DNA from: Pandoraea capi | Lineage (GTDB): Bacteria; Pseudomonadota; Gammaproteobacteria; Burkholderiales; Burkholderiaceae | Direction: 5' to 3' | DNA length: 64,000 nucleotides | Assembly (NCBI RefSeq): GCF_902459735.1 | Contig: NZ_CABPRV010000012.1 | Coordinates: forward strand, 124,001-188,000 | Part shown: piece after piece, positions 4,878 through 39,151 of the stretch | Layout of the letters: the number at the start of each line of letters is the position of its first letter | Numbering within the stretch: the first letter of the stretch is position 1 | Notes under the pieces: model-generated | The model's input: only the letters and a program-made list of their open reading frames with translations | Databases searched by the model: none | Told to the model about the DNA's origin: nothing | Made by a program: the position numbers and the translations under genes

Positions 4878-5618
4878 TCAATCGCGCGGGGCTTCAGGCA
4901 AGGCTTGCACGCGCGGCGCGGCACGCGTGATCCGGCGCGGGCGCGCGCCAAGGCAGTAGCCCCCGCCGTACACTGCACGCAGCACGAGACCGTGTTCGCC
5001 GCGCAGACCGAGGCGATTGCGCAGGAGATAGACGTGCTGTTCGATGCTGCGCGCGGCCGCCGCTTCGTCGCTGCGCCAGATCAGCGACGCGATGCGGGCA
5101 CGGCTCACGCGCATGTCCGGCGCCGAGAACAGCAGCCACGCGAGTGCAAACTCGCGCGCCGTGAGCTCGACTTCGATGCCGTTCACTGCAACGGTGTCGC
5201 GGCCCCGGTCGAGCTGGTAGGCGCCGACTTCCAGCAGGTCGTCGCTGCGGGCCGCGTTGGCTGAGGCGCGCCGGTGGAGCGTCGTAGCCAGGCGGATCTG
5301 CAACTCGGCCACGTCGACGGGGAACGGCAGCACGTCGTCGCACCCGGCGCGAAACGACAGGTCGAGCATCCACGACGGCGTGCCGAAACCGATGACCGGC
5401 GCACCGGCACTGCGCGTGCCCCGACGGCGGGCGAGTACGCCGTGCAAGTCCAGAGGGCCGAGCGCCGCATCGACGAGTACCGCCGAATACGGAATGCGCG
5501 AGGCAGCCACAAGATACTGGGCGGCGTCGTCGAATCGCTGACAGTCGCCGTCGGCGCTGAGGCGGTTGCGAATGGCGTCGTAGAGCCCGATGTCTGACGT
5601 TAGAACTGCAAACTTCAC
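4878..5618 (-). CDS. OmpR-type regulator with degenerate receiver domain
   Basis: A 246-residue two-domain protein. Residues 1-115 have the fold pattern of a receiver domain. D50 sits where the phospho-accepting Asp should be, but the N-terminal acidic pair is reduced to TSD, the conserved Thr/Ser position (after P74) is Gly79, and the conserved Lys before Pro is F99 (LPFP in place of TKPF). Residues ~130-230 form a winged-helix DNA-binding domain ending in RAVYGGGYCL, the usual OmpR wing. No sensor kinase gene is adjacent. It is therefore probably an orphan regulator that works without classical phosphorylation. It lies next to and in the same direction as dctA, but 168 bases separate them. 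Confidence 0.8.
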   Translation of the reverse strand: MKFAVLTSDIGLYDAIRNRLSADGDCQRFDDAAQYLVAASRIPYSAVLVDAALGPLDLHGVLARRRGTRSAGAPVIGFGTPSWMLDLSFRAGCDDVLPFPVDVAELQIRLATTLHRRASANAARSDDLLEVGAYQLDRGRDTVAVNGIEVELTAREFALAWLLFSAPDMRVSRARIASLIWRSDEAAAARSIEQHVYLLRNRLGLRGEHGLVLRAVYGGGYCLGARPRRITRAAPRVQALPEAPRD

Positions 5619-25386: not shown

Positions 25387-25441
25387 GCGGTGAGCGATCC
25401 ATCCGGAATGTCCGCGTAAGCATTCATTGCAGAGGCCACAC

Positions 25442-26518
25442 ATGTTCTATCGCGAAGCTGGGCAGTTCAAGACGTCTTACGTTGCCGACAGCCAGATTTT
25501 CCCGATCCGGCAGGACCGCATCGCCGTGAGCGCCGTGCTCGTGGCGGCGTTCGGGGTGCTGCCATGGATTGCCTCCGAATACTGGCTCACCGCCATCCTC
25601 GTGCCGTTTCTCGTGTTCTCGCTCGCCGCGCTTGGCCTGAATCTGCTGACGGGCTACGCGGGGCAGTTGTCGCTCGGCACGGCGGCATTCATGGCCGTGG
25701 GCGCTTACGCGTCATACAACTTCCAGTTGCGCATCGAGGGCATGCCGATTCTGGCGTCGTTCGCGTTGGGCGGCGTGTGTGCCGCGCTCGTCGGCATTGC
25801 GTTCGGGCTGCCGTCGCTGCGCATCAAGGGCTTCTATCTGGCGGTGGCGACGCTGGCCGCGCAGTTCTTCGTGCTGTGGGTGCTGACGAAATTTCCCTGG
25901 CTGTCGAACAACAGTTCGTCGGGCGTGATCACGGCGCAGAAGATCTCCGTGTTCGGCGTAGACGTCGACACGCCCGTGCGCAAGTACCTGTTCGTGCTGG
26001 GCGTGGTGACGGTGATGGCGCTGATCGCCAAGAATCTCGTGCGCTCGCATATCGGTCGCGCCTGGATGGCCGTGCGCGACATGGACGTCGCTGCCGAAGT
26101 GATCGGTATTCCGCTCATGCGCGTGAAGCTGCTCGCGTTCGCGGTGAGCTCGTTTTACTGCGGCGTGGCCGGCGCACTGTACGCGTACTGCTATCTCGGC
26201 TCCGTCGAGCCGGACGGCTTCTCGCTCGACCTGTCGTTCCGGATTCTGTTCATGATCATCATCGGTGGCGTGGGCAGCATTCTCGGCAGCTTTCTGGGCG
26301 CGGCGTTCATTCTGCTGCTGCCGATCCTGCTCGACAGCACCTTGCCGAGCATCGCCACTTTCCTGCATCTGCCGTTCACCAACGCGACGGTTTCGCACAT
26401 CCAGATGATGGTGTTCGGCGGTCTCATCATCTTCTTTCTGATTGTCGAGCCGCATGGGCTGGCGCGGCTGTGGCAGATCGCCAAGGAGAAACTTCGCATC
26501 TGGCCCTTCCCGCATTGA
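25442..26518 (+). CDS. livM: Liv-type ABC importer permease (LivM)
   Basis: A 358-residue permease with an N-terminal hydrophilic lead of ~35 residues, then membrane segments including LLTGYAGQLSLGTAAFMAVG, the LivM hallmark. The coupling loop is IGRAWMAVRDMDVAAEVIGI. It follows livH by 55 bases and precedes livK by 78 bases. Start 25442 is the ATG nearest to the family start; an upstream in-frame ATG at 25427 is possible. Confidence 0.9.
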   Translation: MFYREAGQFKTSYVADSQIFPIRQDRIAVSAVLVAAFGVLPWIASEYWLTAILVPFLVFSLAALGLNLLTGYAGQLSLGTAAFMAVGAYASYNFQLRIEGMPILASFALGGVCAALVGIAFGLPSLRIKGFYLAVATLAAQFFVLWVLTKFPWLSNNSSSGVITAQKISVFGVDVDTPVRKYLFVLGVVTVMALIAKNLVRSHIGRAWMAVRDMDVAAEVIGIPLMRVKLLAFAVSSFYCGVAGALYAYCYLGSVEPDGFSLDLSFRILFMIIIGGVGSILGSFLGAAFILLLPILLDSTLPSIATFLHLPFTNATVSHIQMMVFGGLIIFFLIVEPHGLARLWQIAKEKLRIWPFPH

Positions 26519-26596
26519 GGTTCGCCAAGCCGGCACGTATTCACGTATTGCCGGTGCAAGTTCGGGCATACACAAAACCACAGATGGAGACACAGC

Positions 26597-27931
26597 ATGA
26601 ACACGAAACGGTTGACGACATCGTTGGGCCTGGCGCTGGCGCTCGGCACGGGGGCGATGGGAGTGGCAGGGACGTCGTTCGCGCAGTCGAACGAGCAGTT
26701 CATCGCGCTGGCGGACTATCGCGTCGGTCCGTATGGCGCCAACGGCCAGTCGTTCTATGGCGGGTTCATCGACTATCTTCAATACGTCAACCTCAAGAAC
26801 GGCGGGGTGAACGGCGTCAAGCTCACGTGGGAAGAGTGCGAGACCGAGTACAACAACGCCAAGGGCGTGGAGTGCTATGAGCGTCTGAAGGGCAAGAACC
26901 CCGTGACGAAAGGCACCGCCTATCACGTGATGGCGACGGGCATTTCGTATGCGCTGATCGACAAGACGGCCACCGATCAGGTGCCGCTCGTGATGATGGG
27001 CTACGGGCGCACCGACGCCGTGGACGGCAGCGTATTCCCGTGGGCGTTCCCGCTGGTGACGACGTACCAGATGCAGGCGTCGGCCATCATCAAGTTCCTC
27101 GCCGACAAGAACGGCGGATCGCTCAATGGCAAGAAGATCGTGTTCCTGTATCACGACTCGGCGTACGGCAAGGAGCCGATCGTCGCCATGCAGGCCGAAT
27201 CGAAGATTCACAAGTTCAACCTGATCGAGATCCCGGTGGCGCATCCGGGTAACGAGCAGGGCGCGCAGTGGCTGCGGATTCGTCAGGAGAACCCCGACTA
27301 CGTGGTGTTCTGGGGATGGGGGGTGATGAACCAGACGGCGCTCAAGGCGGCCCAGAAGGTCGGCTATCCGCGCGAGAAGATCATCGGTAGCTGGTGGGCT
27401 GGCTCGGAGGAAGACACGATCCCGGCCGGTCCGGCGGCCAAGGGCTACATGAGCGCGACGTGGAACGTGGCGGGCAAGCAGGTGCCGCTCATCGCCGACA
27501 TCGAAAAGGTCGTGTACGGCGCGGGCAAGGGGAATATGCAGGACCCGTCGAAGGTCGGCTCGGTCCTGTACAACCGTGGCGTGTCGGCTGCCGTGGCGAC
27601 GGTCGAGGCGCTCAACACCGCGCAGAACAAGTTCGGTAAAGGCAAGGTCTCCACGCCGGTGCAGGTGCGCTGGGCGCTCGAGAACCTGAACATCGATGCC
27701 GCCCGTCTCAAGGCGCTCGGCGCAACGGGCCTGCTGCCTGACATCAAGACGAGCTGCGAAGACCACGAAGGCTCGGGCAAGGTGCGTATTCAACAATGGG
27801 ACGGCGCCAAGTGGGTCATGGTGTCCGACTGGATCGAGGGCAATCGTCGTCTGATCCACCCGCTGTTCGAAGCGTCGGCCAAGCAATACGCCAAGGAAAA
27901 GGGCATGACGCCCGCCTGCTTCAAGGGGTAA
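26597..27931 (+). CDS. livK: Liv-type ABC importer substrate-binding protein (LivK-like)
   Basis: A 444-residue exported binding protein with a signal peptide ending near SFA-Q (residues 29/30). The mature chain is a type I periplasmic fold (SFYGGFIDYLQYVNLKNGGV, KIVFLYHDSAYGKEPI). It is larger than LivJ/LivK (~370), like the binding proteins of aromatic-acid or amide-type Liv importers, so leucine is not an obvious ligand. A GC-rich hairpin follows the stop at 27933; such structures often stabilise the abundant binding-protein message relative to downstream genes. Confidence 0.87.
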   Translation: MNTKRLTTSLGLALALGTGAMGVAGTSFAQSNEQFIALADYRVGPYGANGQSFYGGFIDYLQYVNLKNGGVNGVKLTWEECETEYNNAKGVECYERLKGKNPVTKGTAYHVMATGISYALIDKTATDQVPLVMMGYGRTDAVDGSVFPWAFPLVTTYQMQASAIIKFLADKNGGSLNGKKIVFLYHDSAYGKEPIVAMQAESKIHKFNLIEIPVAHPGNEQGAQWLRIRQENPDYVVFWGWGVMNQTALKAAQKVGYPREKIIGSWWAGSEEDTIPAGPAAKGYMSATWNVAGKQVPLIADIEKVVYGAGKGNMQDPSKVGSVLYNRGVSAAVATVEALNTAQNKFGKGKVSTPVQVRWALENLNIDAARLKALGATGLLPDIKTSCEDHEGSGKVRIQQWDGAKWVMVSDWIEGNRRLIHPLFEASAKQYAKEKGMTPACFKG

Positions 27932-27932
27932 G

Positions 27933-27950
27933 GAGGGGGCAATGCCCCTC
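27933..27950 (+). other. Intercistronic hairpin between livK and livF
   Basis: GAGGGGGC pairs with GCCCCTC across a 3-base loop, with one bulged G. No T tract follows. It lies 1-2 bases after the livK stop, in a 135-base gap inside an otherwise compact operon. It may act as an mRNA stability or attenuation element; this is inference. Confidence 0.4.
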
Positions 27951-28066
27951 GCTGATGCGGCATGACCGTACGTAGCAAGGGCGAGGGGCGCATCGAGACA
28001 TCGGACGATCCGGCGGGGGGATGCCACCGCCCGCCGGTCCCGGCAGCAACGATTGCGGAGTCACGC

Positions 28067-28879
28067 ATGGAAGCGAGTTTGCGCGTCAATAACATCGAAG
28101 TCATTTACGACCACGTCATTCTGGTGCTCAAGGGCGTGTCGCTGATCGTGCCGGAGGGCAAGATCGTGGCGCTGCTGGGGGCCAACGGCGCGGGCAAGAG
28201 TACGACGCTCAAGGCCATCTCGAACCTGCTGCATGCCGAGCGGGGCGAAGTGACGAAGGGGACGATCGACTATCGCGGCGAGCGGGTCGAGAAGCTCACC
28301 CCGAACGGGCTCGTCAAGCGTGGTGTGATTCAGGTGATGGAGGGGCGTCACTGCTTCGGCCATCTGACCATCGAAGAGAATTTGCTGACCGGCAGCTATG
28401 TGCGCCACGCGTCGCGCGGTGCGCAGCAGCACGCGCTGGAGCGCATCTACGCCTATTTCCCGCGTCTGAAGACGCGCCGCAAGTCGCAGGCGGGATACAC
28501 GTCGGGCGGCGAGCAGCAGATGTGCGCAATCGGGCGCGCCATGATGGCGCAGCCGTCGATGATTCTGCTCGACGAACCGTCGATGGGCCTGGCGCCGCAG
28601 ATCGTCGAGGAGATCTTCACGATCGTGCGCGATCTGAACCAGCGCGAGAACGTCAGTTTCCTGCTGGCCGAGCAGAACACCATGGCGGCGCTGCGCTATG
28701 CCGACTATGGCTACATCCTCGAGAACGGTCGCGTCGTGATGGACGGCGACGCCGACGTGCTGCGCGATAACGAGGACGTCAAGGAGTTCTATCTCGGCAT
28801 CGCCAAGGACGGCGCGAGCAGCGCGGGGAGTTTCCGTAACGTCAAGAGCTACCGGCGTCGCAAGCGCTGGATCGCCTGA
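28067..28879 (+). CDS. livF: Liv-type ABC importer ATPase (LivF)
   Basis: A 270-residue ATPase, partner of LivG. Walker A is GANGAGKST, the signature region is YTSGGEQQMCAIGRAMMAQP, Walker B is MILLDEPSMGLAP, and AEQNTMAALRYADYGYILEN is the LivF-type H-loop region. The C-terminal ~35 residues (SSAGSFRNVKSYRRRKRWIA) extend beyond a typical LivF (~235) and are basic, a feature of Liv systems linked to aromatic catabolism. The open frame from 27962 is not used upstream of the aligned start. Confidence 0.9.
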   Translation: MEASLRVNNIEVIYDHVILVLKGVSLIVPEGKIVALLGANGAGKSTTLKAISNLLHAERGEVTKGTIDYRGERVEKLTPNGLVKRGVIQVMEGRHCFGHLTIEENLLTGSYVRHASRGAQQHALERIYAYFPRLKTRRKSQAGYTSGGEQQMCAIGRAMMAQPSMILLDEPSMGLAPQIVEEIFTIVRDLNQRENVSFLLAEQNTMAALRYADYGYILENGRVVMDGDADVLRDNEDVKEFYLGIAKDGASSAGSFRNVKSYRRRKRWIA

Positions 28880-28990
28880 GCGGATAGACAAACCCACCCG
28901 AACGCACCCGAAAGAACGCCGGCATGTCCAGACGCTGCCAGGGGCATGGCCGTGCGCGGGTCCCTGAATCCTGATCGCCTCATCGTGGAT

Positions 28991-30229
28991 ATGAACCAAT
29001 ACTTCGATACGCTGGAAACGCGTGCGCCGGCGCTTCGCGAGCAGGCGCTGCTCGCCGCGCTGCCCGGGCAGGTGGCCCACGCCCGCACGCATGCGGCCTA
29101 CTTTGCCGAGACGCTGGGCGACGTCGATGCGAGCCAGATCGGTTCGCGCGACGCACTGGCCGGCCTGCCCGTCACGCGCAAATCGGATCTGTCGACCTTC
29201 CAGCAGCGGCACCCGCCGCTGGGCGGTCTGAACGCGACGCCGGTCAGCGGGCTGGCTCACGTCTATCAATCGCCCGGTCCGATCTATGAGCCGGACGGGC
29301 GCGGCAGCGACTGGTGGCGCTTCGCGCGGGCGATGTTCGCGGCCGGATTGCGCGCGGGCGATCTCGTCTACAACACGTATTCGTATCACTTCACCCCGGC
29401 GGGCATGATGATCGAGACGGGGGCGACGCGTCTGGGCTGTTGCGTGTTTCCGGCGGGTGTCGGGCAGACGGAGCTGCAACTGGAAGCGATTCGTCATCTG
29501 CGGCCGGTGGCGTACGCGGGCACGCCGTCGTTCCTGAAGATTCTCATCGAGAAGAGCGAGGCGGCAGGGGCGGACATCAGCAGCATCCGGCGCGCGACGT
29601 TATCCGGCGAGGCGCTGCCGCCATCGTTGCGCGAGTGGTTCAATGGGCGGGGGATTACGGCGCGTCAGTTGTACGGCACGGCGGATCTCGGGCTGATCGC
29701 GTTCGAGAGCGACGCGCAGGCGGGGCTGATCGTCGACGAGAACGTGCTCGTCGAGCTGGTGGAGCCGGGCGGCACGAAGCCGGTGGCGGACGGCGAAGTC
29801 GGCGAGGTTGTGGTCACGAACTTCAATCCGGACTATCCGTTGATCCGGTTCGCGACCGGCGACCTGTCGGCGATCGAGGCGGGCATCAGTCCGTGTGGGC
29901 GAACGAACGTGCGCCTGAAGGGCTGGCTGGGGCGCGCCGATCAGACCGTCAAGGTGCGGGGCATGTTCGTGCATCCGGGGCAGATCGGCGAGATCGGCAA
30001 GCGCTATCCGGAGTTGGTTCGCGTGCGTCTGCGGGTCGAGGGGCGTGTCGGCGACGACCGGATGCGACTGCTCTGCGAGACCACCGATACGCCGCCGGAA
30101 GGGCTCGCCGCGCGGGTTCAGGAGACGTTGCGCGACGTGACGCGTTTGCGCGGCGAAGTCGACTTCGTCGCCGCAGGCTCGCTCCCGGCGGACGGGAAGC
30201 TGGTGGAGGACGCGCGGGCTTACGACTGA
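28991..30229 (+). CDS. PaaK-like phenylacetate-CoA ligase family protein with altered P-loop
   Basis: A 412-residue adenylate-forming enzyme related to phenylacetate-CoA ligase (~430 residues). Family elements include LPVTRKSDL near the N-terminus, YGTADLG (A5-like), RFATGDLSAIE, and the C-terminal RADQTVKVRGMFVHPGQIGE. The nucleotide-binding loop, normally SSGTTGxPT, is replaced by HVYQSPGPIYEPDGRGSDWW, so the canonical Gly/Ser/Thr P-loop is missing. It may still bind ATP in a modified way or have lost ligase activity. It is the last gene of the ligase-liv operon and ends before a strong terminator. Confidence 0.82.
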   Translation: MNQYFDTLETRAPALREQALLAALPGQVAHARTHAAYFAETLGDVDASQIGSRDALAGLPVTRKSDLSTFQQRHPPLGGLNATPVSGLAHVYQSPGPIYEPDGRGSDWWRFARAMFAAGLRAGDLVYNTYSYHFTPAGMMIETGATRLGCCVFPAGVGQTELQLEAIRHLRPVAYAGTPSFLKILIEKSEAAGADISSIRRATLSGEALPPSLREWFNGRGITARQLYGTADLGLIAFESDAQAGLIVDENVLVELVEPGGTKPVADGEVGEVVVTNFNPDYPLIRFATGDLSAIEAGISPCGRTNVRLKGWLGRADQTVKVRGMFVHPGQIGEIGKRYPELVRVRLRVEGRVGDDRMRLLCETTDTPPEGLAARVQETLRDVTRLRGEVDFVAAGSLPADGKLVEDARAYD

Positions 30230-30262: not shown

Positions 30263-30303
30263 CAAGGCGCGCGAGGTATGAGCCTCTGCGCGCCTTGGCA
30301 TTT
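30263..30303 (+). terminator. Terminator between convergent operons
   Basis: A long hairpin: outer stem CAAGGCGCGC (30263-30272) with GCGCGCCTTG (30288-30297), and inner stem GAGG (30273-30276) with CCTC (30283-30286). GCATTTT follows. It ends the liv operon and faces the aromatic-acid operon on the other strand. Confidence 0.85.
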
Positions 30304-30337
30304 TCGGGCGGCGTGGCATAGCGCCACGCCGCTTCGA

Positions 30338-31720
30338 TCACAACTTCGCTAAGGCTGCCGGCGCTTGCTGGCCGACGGGCGCGTCCGCCGGCACGGTCTT
30401 GCGATGCGTCGACCCGGCCAGCAGGATACCGAGTGCGGCGAGTATCGCGGGAAGGGCGAGCAGCGAGAACAGCCCCGCGTTGCTCCAGCCGGCGGCCAGC
30501 AGAATGGCGCCGCCGAACGACCCCGCGACCGCGCCGATCCGACCGATGCCGAGCGCCCACGCCACGCCCGTCGCCCGGTTGGAGGTCGGGTAATAGGCCG
30601 AGGCGATGACGTTCGCACAGACCTGAGAGCCGCTGACGCAGAAGCCCGTCACGAAAATGCCGATGGCCAGCCAGGTGGCGCTGCCCGCGACCGCCAGCGA
30701 GGCCAGCGAAATGGCGCCCAGCACGTACGCCGCCGCCACCACCTTGTATGGATGGAACCGGTCGATCAGCACGCCGAGCACAATCGCCCCCAGCACGCCG
30801 CCGCCTTGCAGCAAACCGGCAAACATCGACGCCTGCTTGAGCGTGAGCCCGCTACGCTGGGCGAGAATCGGCAGCCAGTTGATGAGCAGATACAGCAGCA
30901 ACAGGCTCATGAAGAACGCCAGCCAGAGCAACAACGTGCCGCGTCGGTAATCGCGATGAAACAGTTGCACCACGGGCGAAGACGGCAGGCGGTCGTCGGC
31001 GGCGACGAAATGCAGACCGGCGTGCATGCGCCCCGGCGCGACGCGCGAGAGAATCGCTGCGATCCGGGCCTGCGTCCCACCGCGAATCGCGAGAAAGCGC
31101 ACCGATTCCGGTAACGTGAACCAAAGCACGGGCACGAGCGCGAGGGGCAGCAGCCCACCGAGCGCGAGCAGGCCGCGCCAACCGATGCCGGCCACCAGAT
31201 ACGCCGTGACCACGCCGCCGAGCGCCGAGCCGAGCGAGAAGCCGCAGAACATGAGCGTGAGCAGCGTGCCGCGACGCCGTTCGGGGCTGAATTCCGAGGT
31301 GAGGGTGATGGCGTTGGGCATCGCACCGCCGAGGCCCAGTCCCGTCAGAAAGCGCATGGCTATCAGCCATTCGAGGTTGGGCGCCAGCGCCGCGCCCACG
31401 CTCGCGGCCCCGAAGCCTGCTACGGACAGGATCAGCACCAGGCGGCGTCCGATGCGATCGGCCGCCGGGCCGCTACAGAACGCCCCGACCATCAGGCCCA
31501 GCAGCCCGGCGCTGAATAGCGGCCCGAGCGAGACCATCGACAACTGCCACTCGCTTCTGATGTGTGGCGCGATGAAGCCGATGATGGCGATGTCGAAACC
31601 GTCGAGCGCGACGATCAGAAAGCACATCGCGCTGATCATGATCTGAAAGCGCGAGACGGGACTCGCGTTGATGAAGTCCCGCACGTCGACGGGCGAGGAT
31701 CTGCTGGTCGGCTGTTCCAT
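30338..31720 (-). CDS. AAHS-family aromatic acid MFS transporter
   Basis: A 460-residue, 12-helix major facilitator of the aromatic acid:H+ symporter family (PcaK/BenK type). The hallmark DGFDIAIIGFIAPHI occurs in helix 1, and the loop 2-3 motif is GPAADRIGRRLVLI. It should import a benzoate-like acid. It is the last gene of the minus-strand aromatic operon, 59 bases after the monooxygenase, with CAGGAGAC before the ATG. A hydroxybenzoate such as salicylate is the best guess from the neighbours; transport has not been shown. Confidence 0.9.
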   Translation of the reverse strand: MEQPTSRSSPVDVRDFINASPVSRFQIMISAMCFLIVALDGFDIAIIGFIAPHIRSEWQLSMVSLGPLFSAGLLGLMVGAFCSGPAADRIGRRLVLILSVAGFGAASVGAALAPNLEWLIAMRFLTGLGLGGAMPNAITLTSEFSPERRRGTLLTLMFCGFSLGSALGGVVTAYLVAGIGWRGLLALGGLLPLALVPVLWFTLPESVRFLAIRGGTQARIAAILSRVAPGRMHAGLHFVAADDRLPSSPVVQLFHRDYRRGTLLLWLAFFMSLLLLYLLINWLPILAQRSGLTLKQASMFAGLLQGGGVLGAIVLGVLIDRFHPYKVVAAAYVLGAISLASLAVAGSATWLAIGIFVTGFCVSGSQVCANVIASAYYPTSNRATGVAWALGIGRIGAVAGSFGGAILLAAGWSNAGLFSLLALPAILAALGILLAGSTHRKTVPADAPVGQQAPAALAKL

Positions 31721-31779
31721 GAAAGTGTCTCCTGTCTGTGCTTTTTTGCTTTGTCGTGGGCTTGTGAGGGCAACCGCCG

Positions 31780-32931
31780 CTACGCGGCGTGCCCGTGGAG
31801 CGAGGTGGCGCCGCTCGCTTCCACTTGCGCGACGAACGCTGGATCGCGCTCGCGCAGGTCCTCGTGCGTCACACGTCCGGTGCGCAGCATGTAGTCGTAG
31901 GCGAAGCTCACCGGGTCGAGGTGCATGCGTCGATCGACCGATTCGTACCAGTCGAGGCTTCGCCGGGCGGCATCCTGAAAGCGATCCGACGCGCTGCGGC
32001 GGCTCCGCTCGAACGCCGCGAAGGCCGCCGGTACGTCGTTGCGATTGGCGCAGATCGCCTCGAACAGCGCGATGGCGTCCTGCATCGCCATGCGGGTGCC
32101 GGAGCCGAGCGAGAAGTGCACGCTACGCAGCGCATCGCCGAGCAGCACGACATTGCCGTGCGACCAGCGGGCATTGCTGACCACGCGTGCCTGAAACCAG
32201 TGGGAGCGGTTCGTCAGCAACGGGTGACCGCCCAGTTCCTCCGCGAAGGTCTGCTCGCACAAGGCGCGGCTTTCGTCCTCGGTCGCGGTGTCGAGGCCAC
32301 ACCGTGCCCACGTCTCGGGATCGACCTCGACGAGGAACGTCGAGCGCTCCGGGCTGTATTGGTAGGCGTGCGCCATGAATACGCCGTGCGGCGTTTCGCG
32401 GAAGATCAGCGACACCGGATGGAACAACTGCGAGGTGCCGTACCACGCGAACTTGTTGCGGCGTTCGTCGAAGCTCGGTGAGAAGTGCTCGGCCATGCGC
32501 GTGCGCACTTCGCTGTTCACGCCGTCGGCCGCGATGATGACATCGGCGTCAGGGAGTTGTGCGGGGTCCATGATGTGGCTCTGATAACGCACGTCCACAC
32601 CGGCGTCTTCACACGCCTGTTGCAGCACGCGCAGCATGTCGATGCGGGAGGTGCGCGAGAAATGGTTGTTGCTCAGGCGTACCGGCACGCCCTGATGCAC
32701 GATTTCCATGTAGTCGCAGCGGGTGTGGTGCGCGGTGAACTTCCGGAAGAAGGCTTCGTCGGCTTCCTTCAGAAACGCGAGCGCGATGTCGGAGAAGACA
32801 ACGCCCCAGCCATAGGTCGCGTTCGCGGCATTGCGTTCATGGACGACGATCTCGTCTTCCGGATGACGCTGCTTCATGAGCAGCGAGAAATACAGGCCGG
32901 CGGGCCCGCCACCGATGACGGCGATTTTCAT
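31780..32931 (-). CDS. FAD monooxygenase related to salicylyl-CoA / anthraniloyl-CoA 5-hydroxylase
   Basis: A 383-residue flavin monooxygenase. The FAD Rossmann motif is IGGGPAG (6-12), followed by YGWGVVFSD. The second FAD motif is VVLLGDALRSVHFSLGSGTR. The pattern WGVVFSD...HFSxGSGT is that of salicylyl-CoA 5-hydroxylase (SdgC) and of the N-terminal domain of 2-aminobenzoyl-CoA monooxygenase/reductase. Here the protein is only the ~380-residue monooxygenase part; the long reductase domain is absent. It would hydroxylate an aryl-CoA thioester para to the existing hydroxyl or amino group, giving gentisyl-CoA if salicylyl-CoA is the substrate. The CoA ligase and thioesterase genes upstream support this. 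Confidence 0.82.
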   Translation of the reverse strand: MKIAVIGGGPAGLYFSLLMKQRHPEDEIVVHERNAANATYGWGVVFSDIALAFLKEADEAFFRKFTAHHTRCDYMEIVHQGVPVRLSNNHFSRTSRIDMLRVLQQACEDAGVDVRYQSHIMDPAQLPDADVIIAADGVNSEVRTRMAEHFSPSFDERRNKFAWYGTSQLFHPVSLIFRETPHGVFMAHAYQYSPERSTFLVEVDPETWARCGLDTATEDESRALCEQTFAEELGGHPLLTNRSHWFQARVVSNARWSHGNVVLLGDALRSVHFSLGSGTRMAMQDAIALFEAICANRNDVPAAFAAFERSRRSASDRFQDAARRSLDWYESVDRRMHLDPVSFAYDYMLRTGRVTHEDLRERDPAFVAQVEASGATSLHGHAA

Positions 32932-32973
32932 GAGAATCTCCTCTAAGGGGGATGCAGATCGATGGAGTGAGGC

Positions 32974-33753
32974 TCAGGCCGCTTGCACGCGTCGGGATGC
33001 GTCGGTGTCGGCCAGCAGCGCGCCCGCATTCGGCACGACCGGCGCCAGCCCCAGGTGATCGAGCATCTGGCGCACCGTGCTCACGGCCGTCGACGTGACG
33101 GGCAGCCCGATGCGGTCCTGTGCGATCTGGATGGCAGGCAGCGAGGGCATTTGTACGCAGGCCGAGAGCACCACGGCGTCGGCGTTCGCGGTGTTAAGTC
33201 GCTTCACGTCGTCGAGCAACTGCATCGGGTCGCGTTGCCCGACGGCGAGGTTGTCGGGAATCTCGAACGACAGGGCGTCGAGGACTTCGATGCCTTCATG
33301 CTCGATGTACTCGACCACGGCTTGCGTGAGCGGCTTCATGTAGGGCGCCATGAGCGCGATCTTGCGGGCGCCGAGCGTCTTCAGCCCGGCGACGAGCGCG
33401 CCTGCCGAGGTCATGATGGCGGCGTCGCAATGGTTCTCCCGGGCCACCTGCTGCAAGTCGGCTTCGACCTGACGGTGATAGCCCGGTCCCATGGCCATGA
33501 TGGCGACGAGGCAGGCCGTGCTCATCACGTCGACGCGAGCGTCGGCCAGTTCGGCCGCGCAGCGCAGACCCTGACGATTCATAGCCTCCAGTTCCTCTTT
33601 CACCACGCGGTGCATGCGCATCCGGCTTGCGTGGAACGTGAAGCGCTCCGGCAGCATTTGCTCGCGTGCGCGCAGCATCGCGGGAATTTCGGTTTCCATC
33701 GTGGTGTTCGAGCTGGGCACGATCTGGCCGATGCGGAAAGGGCGTTGCGTCAT
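32974..33753 (-). CDS. Maleate cis-trans isomerase (NicE/Iso-like)
   Basis: A 259-residue member of the Asp/Glu racemase superfamily, very close to maleate isomerase of nicotinate degradation (NicE/Iso). The N-terminus RIGQIVPSSNTTMETEIPAM is the family signature. The two catalytic cysteines fit: C81 in TACLVAIM and C199 in SACVQMPSLP (82 and 200 in Pseudomonas Iso). The enzyme turns maleate into fumarate without cofactor. Its presence means the operon is expected to produce maleate. The start overlaps the stop of the thioesterase gene (ATGA), so expression is coupled. Confidence 0.9.
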   Translation of the reverse strand: MTQRPFRIGQIVPSSNTTMETEIPAMLRAREQMLPERFTFHASRMRMHRVVKEELEAMNRQGLRCAAELADARVDVMSTACLVAIMAMGPGYHRQVEADLQQVARENHCDAAIMTSAGALVAGLKTLGARKIALMAPYMKPLTQAVVEYIEHEGIEVLDALSFEIPDNLAVGQRDPMQLLDDVKRLNTANADAVVLSACVQMPSLPAIQIAQDRIGLPVTSTAVSTVRQMLDHLGLAPVVPNAGALLADTDASRRVQAA

Positions 33754-34262
33754 GTCGGGTCTCCGGCGAATGTCGGGAAAGTGGGGGCGGATGCCGCGAC
33801 GCCAGGGGTGCCGGCGGCGCAGTCGGTCCGGTATCGTTCGAGCGCCGTGCGCAGCACGGGCGGCATGTCAATGGACTCGCGCGCGCCCCGCTGGATGCAG
33901 ATCGGCGTGAGCTTCGCGATGAACGCGACATCGCCCTCGGCTTTGCGTGCGGTCATCTGCAAGGTGAAGGTTCTCGTGCGGATGTCGGCGACCTCGACCG
34001 TGACGTCGAAGACATCGTCGGGCCACAGGGAGCGGCGGAAATCGAAGTCAAGTGCGCGCGTGGGCGTGCCGAAGCCATGCCGGTTCTTGACGGCTTGGGG
34101 CGTGCCGCCGAACAGCGAGCCGTAGAACAGTTCGGCAATCGAGATGACGTAGTCAGAGAAGGTCGCGGTATAGACCACGCCAGCCGGATCGCACTCGCCC
34201 CATCGCACCTGTCGGCGCACCACGAACGGTTGCTCGCTCACCACGTATTCGGTGCTGATCAT
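33750..34262 (-). CDS. 4-hydroxybenzoyl-CoA-type thioesterase
   Basis: A 170-residue hot-dog-fold thioesterase. The motif VRWGECDPAGVVYTATFSDY contains the catalytic Asp (D25) of the 4-hydroxybenzoyl-CoA thioesterase type. It should release the free acid from an aryl-CoA, here probably the hydroxylated product of the monooxygenase. Both gene ends overlap their neighbours by four bases (ATGA), the ligase upstream and maleate isomerase downstream. The C-terminal ~25 residues are Ala/Thr/Pro-rich and not conserved-looking. Confidence 0.88.
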   Translation of the reverse strand: MISTEYVVSEQPFVVRRQVRWGECDPAGVVYTATFSDYVISIAELFYGSLFGGTPQAVKNRHGFGTPTRALDFDFRRSLWPDDVFDVTVEVADIRTRTFTLQMTARKAEGDVAFIAKLTPICIQRGARESIDMPPVLRTALERYRTDCAAGTPGVAASAPTFPTFAGDPT

Positions 34263-35971
34263 GCGCCCTCCCTAGCGGGCTGGCCGGCGCTCTCGTGCGG
34301 GGATGTCTCAGCCGCGATCCGGGCGGCAATGGCCGCGCGCAGCGACGCCTTGTCGACCTTGCCGACACGCGTGACCGGGAACTCGTCGACGATTTCGATG
34401 CGCTCGGGGCACTTGAACTTCGCCAGTCCGTGGCCGACGAGAAACGCGACGAGTTCGCCGACCGTCGGCGCCCGCTGCCCGGGGCGGAGAATGAGATAGA
34501 CGCAGCCACGCTCGCCGTAGACCGGGTCCGGCATGGCGACCAGCTTGGCGTCCGCAACGGCGGGGTGATGGCTGACGAACGCCTCGACTTCCTCGCACCC
34601 GATCTTCTCGCCGCCGCGATTGATGTTGTCGCGAAGGCGTCCCTCGAAGGCAAAGCAGCGCACGCCGTCGACGATCCGCTCCGTCACCATGTCGCCGGTG
34701 CGCACGAAGCCGTCGGGCGTGAGCGTCTGCGACGTGGCTTCGGGGGCGTTGTAGTAACCGCGCAGGCTCGACGGGCCGCGAAAGCAAAGCTCGCCCGGCG
34801 TGCCCGGGGCGACGGCCGTGTCGCTGCCGGGAAACAGCACGCGGATCTCGTCGTCCTCACAGCCGGAATGCCCTTGCGTGTGGTGCCGCAAATTCGCCGA
34901 CAGGCGTGCGCCAGCGCCCATGAGCAACCCTTCGGTCGTGCCGTAGAGGTTGAAGCACGGCACGCCCAGATGCGCTTCGAGCGAGTCGGCACGGCTCATC
35001 GTGCCGAAGAGTTGCAGTGAGGACAGGTCATGTCGGGCGACATCCTTGTACGCGATCATCTGCGGCGCGACCGGACCGATCGACAGCCCGTGCGTCACGC
35101 GATGGGTCTCGATCAGCGTGAGCATGCGGGCGATGTCGACGCGCGGCATCAGTACGGTCGTCATGCCCGCGACGACGGTCGAGACGAGCACGTAAAGCTG
35201 ACCGGCGTTGTGCAGCAACGGCAGCGACCAGATCATGCGGCTGTGCTCCGTCATGCCGATGTGCTGCATCCACGCGAGCGAATGGCCGATGTACTCGGCA
35301 TGAAAGCGCGGGATGATTTTGGGAACCCCGGTCGTGCCGCCGGAAAGCTGAAAGCTCAGCACGTCTTCGCTGCCGATCGTCACACCCGCCAGTACCGCGC
35401 GGGCTTGCTCGATCGGCATGGCGTCGATCAGCCGGTCGATGGCGGCGTATCCGGCCACGCCTGCGTGTGCCGTCGTGCCACGGGCGACGAGCAAATGCCG
35501 CAGCGAAGCATGGCGATCCATCATCTGACGGGCGAATCCGACGAGATCGAATGCCGAGAAATCGGCCTGCACGAAGTAAGCGCGCGCGTCCGATTGGGTC
35601 GCCAACTGGCCGATCTCGACTTCCCGGTATTGCGGCACCGCGCATACCGGAACGACGCCCGCTTTGTATGCGCCCATCAGGGCGACGACGGTGTCGATGG
35701 TCGTTCCCATCTGAAAGATCGCGCGATCGCCGGGGCGCAAGCCCACTTCGAGCAGGGCCGCGCCGAGCCGTTCGCTGCGATCGTCCAGCTCGGCAAAGGT
35801 GAGGGTGGCTTCGTCACTGAGGTAGGCCGGGCGTTCGGGCACGCGCGCGGCGGTGGCGCGCAAGGCGTCGCCGAGCGTGGTGTCGCGCCATGCGTTCGAC
35901 GCGAAGTACCGCCGCGCCAGATGCGGCGGACAGTAGGTGACGCCGTCGATAGGGTGATAGATACCGCTCAT
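34259..35971 (-). CDS. EntE/DhbE/SdgA-like aryl-acid AMP ligase
   Basis: A 570-residue adenylating enzyme of the 2,3-dihydroxybenzoate/salicylate ligase type. Evidence is the P-loop QLSGGTTGVPKIIPR, where SGGTTG is characteristic of EntE/DhbE. Further motifs are NLYGTTEGL, the hinge region RLRDNINRGGEKIGCEEVE, and the catalytic Lys near the C-terminus in RVGKVDKASLR. In siderophore systems such ligases load carrier proteins. Here no NRPS or isochorismatase gene is near, so CoA is the likely acceptor, as for salicylyl-CoA formation in the Sdg pathway. AGGAGACAAC precedes the ATG. The ~25-residue C-terminal tail is extra. Confidence 0.87.
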   Translation of the reverse strand: MSGIYHPIDGVTYCPPHLARRYFASNAWRDTTLGDALRATAARVPERPAYLSDEATLTFAELDDRSERLGAALLEVGLRPGDRAIFQMGTTIDTVVALMGAYKAGVVPVCAVPQYREVEIGQLATQSDARAYFVQADFSAFDLVGFARQMMDRHASLRHLLVARGTTAHAGVAGYAAIDRLIDAMPIEQARAVLAGVTIGSEDVLSFQLSGGTTGVPKIIPRFHAEYIGHSLAWMQHIGMTEHSRMIWSLPLLHNAGQLYVLVSTVVAGMTTVLMPRVDIARMLTLIETHRVTHGLSIGPVAPQMIAYKDVARHDLSSLQLFGTMSRADSLEAHLGVPCFNLYGTTEGLLMGAGARLSANLRHHTQGHSGCEDDEIRVLFPGSDTAVAPGTPGELCFRGPSSLRGYYNAPEATSQTLTPDGFVRTGDMVTERIVDGVRCFAFEGRLRDNINRGGEKIGCEEVEAFVSHHPAVADAKLVAMPDPVYGERGCVYLILRPGQRAPTVGELVAFLVGHGLAKFKCPERIEIVDEFPVTRVGKVDKASLRAAIAARIAAETSPHESAGQPAREGA

Positions 35972-36025
35972 GTTGTCTCCTGCACCACGGTTTTCATTGT
36001 GTTGTGACGTGTTGACGGTGCCCGT

Positions 36026-36310
36026 TCAGCGGCCCGGCGATTCCGCGGACCCGGCGCGTGGTGCAATGCGTACGGTGTCGCGTCCGTAGCTCTCGATCTG
36101 GCCGTCGAGCCCGCCGGTGAAGAGGCCATACCAGACGGCGGGTTTCAGACCGAGCGCGCGGCGCTCGAACGCGATCGGTACGTCGCTCGAAATCACCGTG
36201 TAGTCGCCCGCGGTCTCCACGCGGCAAGACGCCATCTCGCGAGCCGTCTGCGCGAACGTGGCGAACTCGGGAACGTTCAATACAAAGATATGCAATGCGC
36301 GTGCGTTCAT
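36026..36310 (-). CDS. Small unknown protein of the aromatic operon
   Basis: A 94-residue protein that I do not recognise. It has an alternating hydrophobic pattern suggesting a small alpha/beta fold (ALHIFVLNVPEFATFAQTA, then WYGLFTGGLDGQIESYGRD), and no signal peptide or membrane segment. ATG 36310 overlaps the stop of the VOC gene by four bases (ATGA), so it is translated together with that protein. This tight coupling, and its position inside a catabolic operon, point to a subunit or accessory protein of the VOC enzyme or to a small enzyme. It is probably cytoplasmic. No function is claimed. Confidence 0.7.
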   Translation of the reverse strand: MNARALHIFVLNVPEFATFAQTAREMASCRVETAGDYTVISSDVPIAFERRALGLKPAVWYGLFTGGLDGQIESYGRDTVRIAPRAGSAESPGR

Positions 36311-36954
36311 GACTGGCGCTCCGGGCGAAGGGCGTTGAGGTGGTGTTGCGCCTTGCGCTGCCACACGGTGTCGATGCAGGTATTGGGCTGACCGCTCGCC
36401 AGCCCTTCGTCTTCGATCTCCATGGCGGCTTCAAGCGTGAGCGCGGCGTCGCGGGCGTCGATATCGGCCAGCGGGCGAAGCTTGCGCGTGATCTCGATGA
36501 AATAGCCGTTGGGGTCGCGGAAGTAGATCGATTCGATGACTTCGTGGGCGGTCTCCGCCGAGACTTCGACGCCGCGCGCTTCCAGTCGCGTTTTCCACGC
36601 GTGGAGTTCGTCCTGCGAGTCGACGAGCCATGCGGTGTGCGTCGCATCGAATACGTGATCTTCCGGCAGCGGGGCACGTCCGGGCCGCTCGCTGAGCGAC
36701 GCCGGTTCTTTGGCGCCGAGGTAATAGAAGAACGCAATCGTGCTGCCGTTGCCGCTGTCGAAGAAGAAGTGCAGGAAGTCGGGGTGCGTTGCCGGCCCCC
36801 AGCCCCGGGCGGAGATGGTGTGGGTCAACGGCAGGCCGAGGACGTCGCGGTAGAACTCGACGGTTTGCCGCAGCCGCCAAGTCGGGCGGGCAGTGTGGTC
36901 GACGCCGTGCAGGCGCAGGGCGAGATCGGTCGCCGGAATGTCGTTCAGTTTCAT
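36307..36954 (-). CDS. VOC-superfamily protein, candidate ring-cleavage dioxygenase
   Basis: A 215-residue vicinal-oxygen-chelate protein with two beta-alpha-beta-beta-beta modules: RLHGVDHTARPTWRLRQTVE at the start and DATHTAWLVDSQDELHAWK at the second. YFRDPNGYFIEITRKL closes the second module. Candidate metal ligands are H16 or H20, H106 and E154, the 2-His-1-Glu set of type I extradiol dioxygenases. The C-terminal ~55 residues are extra. In an operon that appears to make a gentisate-like diol and later consumes maleate, but has no gentisate dioxygenase, this is the best candidate for ring opening. Glyoxalase or isomerase activity is also possible. Confidence 0.75.
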   Translation of the reverse strand: MKLNDIPATDLALRLHGVDHTARPTWRLRQTVEFYRDVLGLPLTHTISARGWGPATHPDFLHFFFDSGNGSTIAFFYYLGAKEPASLSERPGRAPLPEDHVFDATHTAWLVDSQDELHAWKTRLEARGVEVSAETAHEVIESIYFRDPNGYFIEITRKLRPLADIDARDAALTLEAAMEIEDEGLASGQPNTCIDTVWQRKAQHHLNALRPERQS

Positions 36955-36998
36955 AGCGGGTTCAGTAGAGGCATTGGGGCGTCAGGGAAGACGTCGAT

Positions 36999-38285
36999 TC
37001 ATGACGGGAACGTTTCGCGCAGCCAGTCCCGGAGCAGTCGGCCGGCAACATAACGCCCGGCTTCCTCTCCTTCGGCCAGCGCACGACCGTGATGGTCGCC
37101 TCGCACGCGGCGATGCGATTTATGCGACGTGCCGAGGCGCTCGTAGATTTCGGTGATCACGCTGGGAAAGCACGCCTGATCGCCGGTGTACTCGATCAGC
37201 AGCGTGGGTTGCACGATGGCGGGGGCGGTCTTCGAGAGCAGGGCATTTGACGACAGGCCGGACCACGTCGAGAGCCAGGCCTCGGGGGAACACACACGGC
37301 CAAAGCCGACGGAGCCGTAATTCGACGTGAAGGGGTCGCTGCCCCACAGCGAGCCATAGCGCCGGTCTGACGGATCGAGCGTCAGATCGAAGCAGCGCAG
37401 GTCGGCATCGGTACGCCAGATCGTCATCAACGGCGTGTGCGCGGCCATGCGGTGCAGGCGTGCGTCGGTATTGCCGGGGGCGCGCTTCAAACGCTCGCGT
37501 GCGCCCTGACGTGCAGCGATCAGGTCGCGCGCGGTGGCGTCGAGTCGGGCAACGCGCGCGGCCTGTGCTGCGCGATAACGCGTGACAAAGTCGTCGGTGT
37601 AGCGGGTCTCGGTGGCACCGTCGGCGCGACGGGGGGCATAACCGTTGGCGGTGTCGAATGGATCGAGCGCCGGATCGACGCTCAACGCGTCGTGCTCGTT
37701 GGTCACCGAGGGATCGATGCACGTTTGCAGCAAAGCGCCCTGACCGGGGTGCGGCGCGACGAACACCACGCCATCGATCTGCGGCATGTCGAGCGCAGCC
37801 AGACGCGTCGGGCGTCCGCCCGGGGTGCGTTCGATGCGCTCGGTCGGCGCGAGATTGGACTGCTGCACGTATAGCGCATACAGGCCGCTGCCGCCCGAGT
37901 TACCGAGCAGCACGATCTTCCTGAACCCCGCCTCGCGCAGAAACTGCATACCGGCGGCGACGTCGTAGAGCGCGAATTCGTGTTCGAGCCGCATGTCGTT
38001 GCCGACCGAACGCGGCGCCTGCGTCCAGGCGGCGAATCCGGCCTCGACGATGTCCGGAATCAGGTAATGGCAGGCCATGAATTCACGCGGATGCATGATG
38101 CACACCACCGTATCGGCCGAGCCTGCCCCGTAAAGCGAACCGCTTGTGGCCGCGCCGTCTGCCGTGCGCAGCACGACGTTGCGTGTCGTCGTGCCGAGCG
38201 GCAGATCGCGCGGGTTCCAGTCCGTGTTCAGAAATCCTGCCGTCGCGGCCTGTCCTGCGGCGCGAGCCGGTTGTTGATGACTCAT
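36999..38285 (-). CDS. Alpha/beta hydrolase, first gene of the aromatic operon
   Basis: A 428-residue alpha/beta hydrolase, longer than most. The nucleophile elbow is VLLGNSGGSG with S130. VVCIMHPREFMACHYL forms an oxyanion-side strand. EYTGDQACFPS probably carries the acid, and VRGDHHGRAL near the C-terminus the catalytic His. The ~120 residues between the elbow and the acid contain a lid-like insertion rich in Arg/Ala. It may hydrolyse a C-C bond or an ester formed in the pathway, for instance maleylpyruvate to maleate plus pyruvate; this step is inferred only from the maleate isomerase downstream. An AAAGGAGG site precedes the ATG. Confidence 0.8.
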   Translation of the reverse strand: MSHQQPARAAGQAATAGFLNTDWNPRDLPLGTTTRNVVLRTADGAATSGSLYGAGSADTVVCIMHPREFMACHYLIPDIVEAGFAAWTQAPRSVGNDMRLEHEFALYDVAAGMQFLREAGFRKIVLLGNSGGSGLYALYVQQSNLAPTERIERTPGGRPTRLAALDMPQIDGVVFVAPHPGQGALLQTCIDPSVTNEHDALSVDPALDPFDTANGYAPRRADGATETRYTDDFVTRYRAAQAARVARLDATARDLIAARQGARERLKRAPGNTDARLHRMAAHTPLMTIWRTDADLRCFDLTLDPSDRRYGSLWGSDPFTSNYGSVGFGRVCSPEAWLSTWSGLSSNALLSKTAPAIVQPTLLIEYTGDQACFPSVITEIYERLGTSHKSHRRVRGDHHGRALAEGEEAGRYVAGRLLRDWLRETFPS

Positions 38286-38300
38286 CTCTCCACCTCCTTT

Positions 38301-38368
38301 TTTTACATGCTAGTCCAAATTTTTACAAAGTAGTAAACATTTTTGACGAAATTTGACGTTTACGTAAA
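38301..38368. promoter_or_regulatory. TTTAC/GTAAA operator-like repeats, probable TetR sites
   Basis: In the 182-base gap between divergent genes, TTTTACATGCTAGT (38301-38314) is repeated as TTTTACAAAGTAGT (38321-38334), exactly 20 bp apart. The second copy forms an inverted repeat TTTAC-N6-GTAAA (38322-38337). A third element, TTTACGTAAA (38359-38368), is a perfect 10-bp palindrome of the same half-sites. These are good candidates for the TetR regulator encoded at 38468, overlapping the promoters of both the aromatic operon and tetR. Binding is inference. Confidence 0.6.
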
Positions 38369-38467: not shown

Positions 38468-39151
38468 ATGAGCAAGACGCAGACGAAAAGCGACGCGCTG
38501 CGGGAGAACATCCTGGATGTCGCGACGAAGCTGTTCATCGAGCGCGGGTTCGACGGCACGAGCTTCAACGACATTGCCGACGTTGTCGGCGTGACCCGCC
38601 CTGCGCTCTACTACTACTTCAAGAGCAAGGAAGCGATCCTTGAAGTGCTGACGGCGGTCGTCACGCGCGCCGCCGGCGATCTGGTGTCGGAGGCATTGCC
38701 CGAAAATCTGCGGCAACCATCGGCCATGCTGAGGCATCTCGTGCTCCGGCATGCGCATCTCATCCTCACGCACCCGCTGCAATTCCGGGTCGTGGAGCGC
38801 AATGAAGACAACCTTCCGCCGGAGCAGCGAAAGCTGGCGGAGCAGTCGCGGCGCGCGGTGCTGGAGCAATTCCGGCACGCCATCGAGCTGGGCATCGAGC
38901 GCGGTCAGTTTCGCGTGATGGATGCGAGGGTCGCGGCGTTCTCGATCATCGGGATGTGCAACTGGACAGCGTGGTGGTTCACGCCGACGGGCTCGCGAAA
39001 CGCCGGGGAAATCGCAGAGCAGATTGCCGACATGGCGTTGCGTTCGGTCGAGCAGGAAGCGGGACGTCAGTTGAGCGAGCAGAGCGCAGCGGGCGTGTTG
39101 AAACTGCTGCGCGACGATATCGATCTGCTTGAAAGGCACATCAAGTCGTAG
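38468..39151 (+). CDS. TetR-family regulator of the aromatic operon
   Basis: A 227-residue TetR-type regulator. The HTH is near residues 20-60 (TKLFIERGFDGTSFNDIADV, then VTRPALYYYFKSKEAILEV). The rest is an all-helical ligand domain with a C-terminal half reminiscent of the TetR_C group used in aromatic and acyl-CoA catabolism. The start at 38468 is where the family sequence begins; no strong Shine-Dalgarno is visible. Divergent position and the TTTAC-type repeats in between suggest it represses the eight-gene operon until an aryl-CoA or similar intermediate binds. Confidence 0.9.
   Translation: MSKTQTKSDALRENILDVATKLFIERGFDGTSFNDIADVVGVTRPALYYYFKSKEAILEVLTAVVTRAAGDLVSEALPENLRQPSAMLRHLVLRHAHLILTHPLQFRVVERNEDNLPPEQRKLAEQSRRAVLEQFRHAIELGIERGQFRVMDARVAAFSIIGMCNWTAWWFTPTGSRNAGEIAEQIADMALRSVEQEAGRQLSEQSAAGVLKLLRDDIDLLERHIKS

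Follow-up and report, generated by a model that had tools for sequence, protein, structure and literature searches.

The window analysed here, a stretch of 64,000 nucleotides, comes from Pandoraea capi (contig NZ_CABPRV010000012.1, positions 124,001 to 188,000), whose genome assembly comprises 5.85 Mb in 31 contigs. Its list of open reading frames (ORFs) contains eight on the minus strand, running from position 38285 down to position 30338, which an earlier annotation made from the letters alone (the sequence-only reading) had described as one eight-gene operon, and the ORFs bear this out. The products suggest a route in which salicylate, or a close 2-hydroxybenzoate, would be activated as a coenzyme A (CoA) ester and hydroxylated, and in which a VOC family protein, an alpha/beta hydrolase and a maleate isomerase would make up the lower half. 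The genes and the two features next to them are the following:

36999..38285, minus strand: ABH, alpha/beta hydrolase of 428 residues, proposed maleylpyruvate hydrolase (Ser130, Asp369, His398/His399; predicted fold)
36307..36954, minus strand: VOC protein of 215 residues, proposed catalytic part of a ring-cleavage dioxygenase (PF00903; His20, His106 and Glu154 as putative metal ligands)
36026..36310, minus strand: 94-residue protein, the C-terminal domain of the VOC enzyme encoded as a separate gene (ATGA overlap with the VOC gene; fused in relatives)
34259..35971, minus strand: LIG, EntE/PchD-like ligase of 570 residues, predicted to activate an aryl acid of the salicylate type (AMP-binding family; best PDB matches)
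33750..34262, minus strand: TE, hot-dog thioesterase of 170 residues, proposed gentisyl-CoA thioesterase (PF13279, 4HBT_2)
32974..33753, minus strand: maleate cis-trans isomerase of 259 residues (Amdase/maleate isomerase family; Cys81, Cys199)
31780..32931, minus strand: FMO, single-domain flavin adenine dinucleotide (FAD) monooxygenase of 383 residues, salicylyl-CoA 5-hydroxylase/VioD family (NCBIfam, PDB, tree)
30338..31720, minus strand: MFS transporter of the AAHS/PcaK kind, 460 residues, for an aromatic acid (family match below curated cut-offs)
38468..39151, plus strand: divergent TetR/AcrR regulator (TetR_C_24; family match)
38322..38338, no strand assigned: candidate operator, inverted repeat TTTAC-N6-GTAAA (intergenic scan)

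The ATGA overlaps attributed to the operon in the sequence-only reading are found at three of its seven junctions (VOC/94-residue protein, ligase/thioesterase and thioesterase/isomerase), while the other four are gaps of 42 to 59 bp. The families named at that time all stand: an MFS transporter of the AAHS type, a 4HBT_2 hot-dog thioesterase, an EntE-like AMP-binding ligase, a VOC protein (PF00903) and a member of the Amdase/maleate isomerase family.

The set proved to be conserved in 80 loci, the best 80 of 188 relatives, fetched from named genomes by VOC similarity. Homologues of the ligase are present in all 80, of ABH in 79, of FMO and of the TetR regulator in 78 each, of TE in 56 and of the isomerase in 51, and the hosts include Pandoraea, Caballeronia, Cupriavidus, Achromobacter, Bordetella, Pusillimonas, Variovorax, Pigmentiphaga, Azospirillum, Pseudomonas and Chelatococcus. 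Additionally, 299 genomes of the window's family were searched, 51 of which gave an ABH match (E ≤ 1e-10). ABH homologues of at least 60% identity occur in 27 of the 299 and these are exactly the 27 that have an FMO of at least 59% identity; because the two sets of genomes coincide, the arrangement is far beyond chance. The sequences themselves document the gene set, the families, the putative catalytic residues, this conservation and, as described below, the exchange of lower modules.

A paralogous operon, type B (the kind found in the window being type A), has the whole set at 34-68% identity to that of the window and is found in L117, L118, L120, L121 and L125. Its identities are 54-58% for ABH, 34-38% for the ligase, 57-61% for VOC, 44-50% for TE, 64-68% for the isomerase and 39-40% for FMO (45% in one partial ORF), and type A ligases go down to 58%. 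Both types occur together in genome G243. There are also loci (L052, L053, L058) where VOC, ABH and ligase have type A identity and FMO is just 41% identical to that of the window; the FMO of L052 groups with type B in the tree, making this operon a mosaic.

The 94-residue protein had been listed at first as an unknown with a gene of its own. A VOC ORF of 287 to 316 residues that includes this sequence at its end is present in 66 of the 80 loci, and the 94-residue protein is therefore the C-terminal domain of the VOC enzyme; the same fusions rule it out as an independent enzyme. The two are separate genes in the remaining 14 loci, that is, in seven of the eight from Pandoraea, in all five from Cupriavidus and in L112 and L114, so that the domain was split off (or fused) more than once. 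At a finer scale, the VOC gene is split into overlapping or abutting genes in L037-L043, L049, L057, L073, L076 and L090, and fused in the close relatives L044-L048, a pattern of repeated fission or fusion. In the AlphaFold model of the fused protein of L045 (mean pLDDT 87.4), residues 216-259 run strand-helix-strand-strand-strand, the succession of elements that makes up half a VOC module. When profiles of the 94-residue domain and of both VOC halves were compared, no match resulted, and none resulted in the control either, in which one VOC half was compared with the other.

His20, His106 and Glu154 of the VOC protein are invariant in 31 of 31 fused relatives, and a VOC fold with a 2-His-1-Glu metal site is predicted from this triad, the model and its structural neighbours. 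The nearest solved sequence is 9u42 from Acinetobacter, titled homogentisate 1,2-dioxygenase, with which the ligand triad aligns. Both belong to the VOC family and, going by the title, share a 2,5-dihydroxy aromatic compound as substrate, while 9u42 has 182 residues and no C-terminal domain of the 94-residue kind. On the A. baumannii plasmid NZ_CP076815.1 (L147), a VOC homologue (5004-5552) lies with hppD and, unlike here, with the genes for maleylacetoacetate isomerase (maiA) and fumarylacetoacetase (fahA), no cupin homogentisate dioxygenase was seen within the stretch shown, and the homologue is apparently the VOC-type homogentisate dioxygenase of that title. Elsewhere (L119, L122, L123, L148), distant homologues of VOC and ABH (30-41%) are adjacent or close to each other without ligase and FMO, and in L122 the pair adjoins an MhpA-like hydroxylase. 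The VOC/ABH pair thus seems to serve other ring-cleavage pathways too.

The remainder of the lower half consists of the hydrolase and the isomerase. ABH had been described as a large alpha/beta hydrolase and its model has in fact the standard fold (mean pLDDT 86.3), with no family match at the curated cut-offs in Pfam and NCBIfam scans. Ser130, Asp369, His398 and His399 are invariant in 33 of 33 aligned sequences. A PDB sequence search found no credible relative (the best, with E 0.0065, is an inositol monophosphatase). HbzF, which splits maleylpyruvate in another pathway, is of the fumarylacetoacetate hydrolase type, and ABH gave no FAA_hydrolase match that would place it in that family. The isomerase aligns with the maleate cis-trans isomerase 4fq7 (E 6e-81) and has both catalytic cysteines, Cys81 and Cys199, as originally claimed; its match to PF01177 is below the cut-off. 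The 29 loci that lack it belong to 28 genomes, all of which have a homologue outside the stretch (28 of 28, the best at 59-76% identity), and in isomerase-less loci at contig ends the gene could still be adjacent. Within the window's family, an isomerase homologue (E ≤ 1e-60) is present in 48 of the 51 ABH-positive genomes versus 62 of the 248 ABH-negative ones, a contrast inflated by relatedness and physical linkage. Enzymes of the maleate isomerase type also serve nicotinate pathways. The genome of the window contains a second homologue, 60% identical (C8:70224), near a FAD hydroxylase gene at C8:68830.

Regarding the upper half, the best PDB matches of LIG are salicylate-AMP ligases (PchD, 5wm2) and 2,3-dihydroxybenzoate-AMP ligases. 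Its residues His254-Asn255, presumably the aryl-acid contacts, going by the DhbE structure, are invariant in 78 of 78 type A and seven of seven type B ligases. FMO aligns, with 416.5 bits, to positions 1-383 of the 768-position NCBIfam model of the bifunctional salicylyl-CoA 5-hydroxylase; this is the N-terminal part of a curated model that represents the whole bifunctional protein, and the full-length cut-off of 1078 is not reached. The best PDB match of FMO is VioD.

Related upper modules have also been found beside homologues of cupin dioxygenases. These come from a non-systematic sample, chosen by eye, of seven of 179 FMO and ten of 54 VOC plasmid records, and from L138 and L139, two short-frame FMO matches noticed, among the matches listed, in genomes without an ABH match. 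FMO and ligase lie near a homologue of the cupin gentisate dioxygenase in L133 (Rhizobium), L138, L139, L140 (Variovorax) and L142 (Sinorhizobium); L134 (Rhizorhabdus) has FMO and dioxygenase and nothing more of the module. The cupins of L139 (475.9 bits) and L140 (461.3) exceed the gentisate_1_2 cut-off of 442.1 bits. In the FMO tree, seven rows labelled GDO (one of them L141, where FMO and ligase share one coding sequence) group with type B (96/93), and this group is nested in a clade of 36 rows (98/97) to which type A belongs as well. The L139 ligase and the 19 type A ligases make up a clade of 20 rows (100/100), its position beside rather than inside them having support of 81/94. Both lower modules are adjacent in L132 (Streptomyces). 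Related upper modules thus appear to couple to either lower module, VOC/ABH or cupin, and in those cases in which the cupin is a true gentisate dioxygenase, the upper module can be expected to yield gentisate. One FMO record of the sample, L136, represents the kind of cluster that contains the bifunctional enzyme. L146 sits on a very long branch in the FMO tree.

Two of these loci have further features. L139 (G290:C2, 5258-13377) comprises ligase, thioesterase (4HBT_2, just over the Pfam cut-off), FMO, cupin gentisate dioxygenase, an FAH-type hydrolase and a LeuC/LeuD-like pair. The pair could be a maleate hydratase, as in the HbzIJ route, but is not used as evidence, since its scores are those of a 3-isopropylmalate dehydratase and an IS5 transposase gene comes next; its LeuC shares 91% identity with a second copy encoded elsewhere in that genome. 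In L140, on a Variovorax boronicumulans plasmid, FMO and gentisate dioxygenase are accompanied by genes for acyl-CoA dehydrogenase, hydratase and 3-hydroxyacyl-CoA dehydrogenase, which has the look of a route that shortens the side chain of a 2-hydroxyphenyl acid by beta-oxidation and so supplies salicylyl-CoA.

The occurrence of the classical dioxygenase was surveyed for 71 of the 80 loci (the nine metagenome-assembled ones being excluded), which correspond to 69 genomes, mostly drafts. In six of them (L061, L062, L066, L068, L094, L114; the first three are Azospirillum or Paraburkholderia strains), no match to gentisate_1_2 was found, which leaves the VOC enzyme as the candidate at hand, other ring-cleaving families not having been searched for. 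The genome of the window, for its part, has no salicylate 1-monooxygenase over the cut-off.

With a probability of roughly 0.58, we propose that the eight genes form a self-contained operon for breaking down salicylate or a closely related 2-hydroxybenzoate, with VOC, hydrolase and isomerase as its lower half. The MFS protein would import the acid, under regulation by TetR, and LIG would convert salicylate, ATP and CoA to salicylyl-CoA, which FMO would hydroxylate para to the 2-hydroxyl group (5-hydroxylation), giving gentisyl-CoA. TE or another thioesterase would release gentisate, whose ring the VOC protein, together with its detached C-terminal domain, would open between C1 and C2 to yield maleylpyruvate. 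The serine hydrolase ABH would split this directly into maleate and pyruvate, and the isomerase would convert maleate to fumarate. This is the order that had been put forward with the first annotation, and the comparative evidence lends it support. We favour it because related upper modules lie beside cupin homologues, because of the six genomes without a cupin match, because of the title of 9u42 and because an isomerase is present in the locus or in the genome. What we infer from these patterns comprises all of the reactions, the identity of the substrate, and whether the thioester is released before the ring is opened.

Several observations weigh against this proposal, beginning with the cupin itself. 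The operon had been described as being without a classical gentisate dioxygenase, and this is right for the operon, as none of its eight proteins matched the cupin gentisate 1,2-dioxygenase family TIGR02272, the VOC protein included (NCBIfam scan). For the genome it does not hold: a classical dioxygenase over the cut-off is encoded at G000:C17:36809, clustered with genes for 3-hydroxybenzoate 6-monooxygenase, a GST and an FAA hydrolase, company which suggests that this cupin has another job. Of the 69 operon genomes surveyed, 54 have the classical enzyme over the cut-off and a further nine have a match below it. Additionally, the genome of the window encodes an enzyme of about 780 residues that is over the cut-off of the NCBIfam model for bifunctional salicylyl-CoA 5-hydroxylase/oxidoreductase; we take it to be of the 2-aminobenzoyl-CoA type, although, given the name of the model, salicylyl-CoA could be its substrate. 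The support drawn from structures is also limited: 9u42 is 29% identical to the VOC protein, superposes poorly on it (TM 0.39, root-mean-square deviation 18.6) and is not among the 50 structural neighbours listed for the VOC model, and its homogentisate function rests on the title given by its depositors. As for ABH, its fold is closest to esterases and lipases, including feruloyl esterases. Among the 80 loci, there are 24 in which TE is missing and 29 in which the isomerase is, and some of these are cut by contig ends.

The exchange of modules is likewise less simple than the best examples suggest. The cupins of L133, L134 and L138 score 226-274 bits, below the cut-off, and may open the ring of another acid; that of L142 was matched by tblastn alone, and in L141 an FAA hydrolase is seen without any cupin. 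It also counts against a simple exchange that L133, L141 and L142 have ligases of the benzoate-CoA ligase type. In Actinobacteria, the FMOs of L137 and L145 group with the bifunctional type on long branches, the FMO match of L131 covers 48 residues only, and L132 has none.

It is possible, if doubtful, that the route is of this general kind and that the substrate is a substituted 2-hydroxybenzoate or a 2-hydroxy-heteroaromatic acid, which analogous chemistry would convert to maleate or a substituted maleate. The low identity of type B ligases to that of the window, the spread within type A and the coexistence of both types in G243 would agree with this, as would the variation in peripheral genes: one aldehyde dehydrogenase cluster is represented in 15 of the 80 loci and one GMC oxidoreductase cluster in five, and since NCBIfam scans gave such genes broad names only, these do not fix the substrate. 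Salicylate itself is favoured by the invariant His-Asn of LIG and its closeness to salicylate-AMP ligases, and by the likeness of the isomerase to one acting on maleate.

We regard as unlikely that the ring is opened at the level of the thioester, with the VOC enzyme acting on gentisyl-CoA and the thioester being cleaved later by TE, by the hydrolase or spontaneously. The closeness of the VOC fold to known structures indicates no substrate, TE is present in 56 of the 80 loci, and in L139 a 4HBT_2 thioesterase is paired with a cupin dioxygenase, which presumably acts on the free acid. A bolder version receives the same low credence from us; here, the C-terminal domain would be dedicated to handling CoA, the VOC enzyme would open gentisyl-CoA, the serine hydrolase would free maleate and free gentisate would not be obligatory, the module having evolved apart from the cupin route and replaced it (or vice versa) in several groups.

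Rather improbable, too, is a role of the upper genes in making gentisate for the chromosomal cupin, with ABH as an esterase that frees the acid from esters and VOC in some other function. The frequency of cupins in operon genomes, that of the window among them, and the nearness of the ABH fold to feruloyl esterases speak for it, but six of the 69 genomes have no match to gentisate_1_2, and VOC and ABH are paired even where ligase and FMO are absent (L122, L123, L148). Finally, an anthranilate (2-aminobenzoyl-CoA) operon, suggested by the resemblance of FMO to the N-terminal half of the bifunctional enzyme, is rejected as very improbable, because the genome has a separate cluster (L129) in which the enzyme of about 780 residues lies with ligase, thioesterase, acyl-CoA dehydrogenase and enoyl-CoA hydratase, because the tree separates FMO from that enzyme, and because the family scans of the eight proteins turned up no amidase or deaminase.

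Returning to the salicylate operon proposed above, its upper half has known counterparts. In the sdg genes of Streptomyces sp. WA46 and the ceh genes of Rhizobium sp. X9, a ligase, a FAD monooxygenase acting on the CoA ester and a thioesterase lead to gentisate, and the likeness to our operon is one of gene roles. In sdg the ring is opened by the gentisate 1,2-dioxygenase SdgD, a cupin whose gene lies in the cluster. By contrast, the operon of the window contains no cupin dioxygenase and has VOC, serine hydrolase and maleate isomerase as neighbours instead. The other enzymes to be compared are PcpA (2,6-dichlorohydroquinone 1,2-dioxygenase, 4huz) and LinE, which are longer VOC enzymes acting on chlorinated hydroquinones, and 4fq7, of the same family as our isomerase and with both cysteines; the neighbours here are not nicotinate genes, the pathway in which NicE is the maleate cis-trans isomerase.

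The CoA-dependent salicylate route is credited to Zhou 2021 in the relevant passage of PMC11335346 and to Ishiyama 2004 in that of PMC13215587, where induction of sdgC by salicylate in a Massilia strain is also mentioned, and an SdgC homologue in Alcaligenes appears in an excerpt of PMC6460240. The direct conversion of maleylpyruvate to maleate and pyruvate is ascribed, in a passage of PMC5658364, to HbzF of Pseudomonas alcaligenes NCIMB 9867; the same reaction is proposed here for an alpha/beta hydrolase. Among the matches listed in the open-licence PubMed Central literature, none was recognised as dealing with this operon or with a gentisate dioxygenase of the VOC type. Ligation, hydroxylation and thioester release are known from sdg and ceh, so that the new part is the lower half, in which a serine hydrolase is combined with a VOC enzyme that has an additional C-terminal domain.

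If the proposal is true, Proteobacteria and probably Actinobacteria possess a second family of enzymes that open the gentisate ring, unrelated to the first, a serine hydrolase and a maleate isomerase replace the isomerase/fumarylpyruvate hydrolase pair, and two protein families without a functional name gain a testable function. Such operons are currently annotated as “VOC family protein”, “alpha/beta hydrolase” and “Asp/Glu racemase”, so that the salicylate turnover they would perform in soil and on roots would escape searches for nahG, nagGH or cupin dioxygenases. As salicylate is a plant defence hormone, the module would also bear on root colonisation.

With regard to uptake and regulation, an AAHS homologue is found anywhere in the stretch in 35 of the 80 loci, and the uptake genes differ: for instance, there is an ABC-type binding protein in L064, a TTT system in L143 and a TRAP system in L144. 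The inverted repeat TTTAC-N6-GTAAA is present in seven of the nine Pandoraea intergenic regions scanned and in none of the 34 scanned from other genera. A GC-rich inverted repeat without a T run, noticed by eye, lies directly past the stop codon of the transporter gene (about 30300-30335, minus strand). Converging on the operon, the plus strand at 25427-30229 carries genes that were named by eye as those of an ABC transporter of the branched-chain amino acid type, and after them a gene for a PaaK-like ligase, a homologue of which is within the stretch in four of the eight named Pandoraea loci (L037, L039, L042, L043); these genes perhaps provide for uptake and activation of a related acid.

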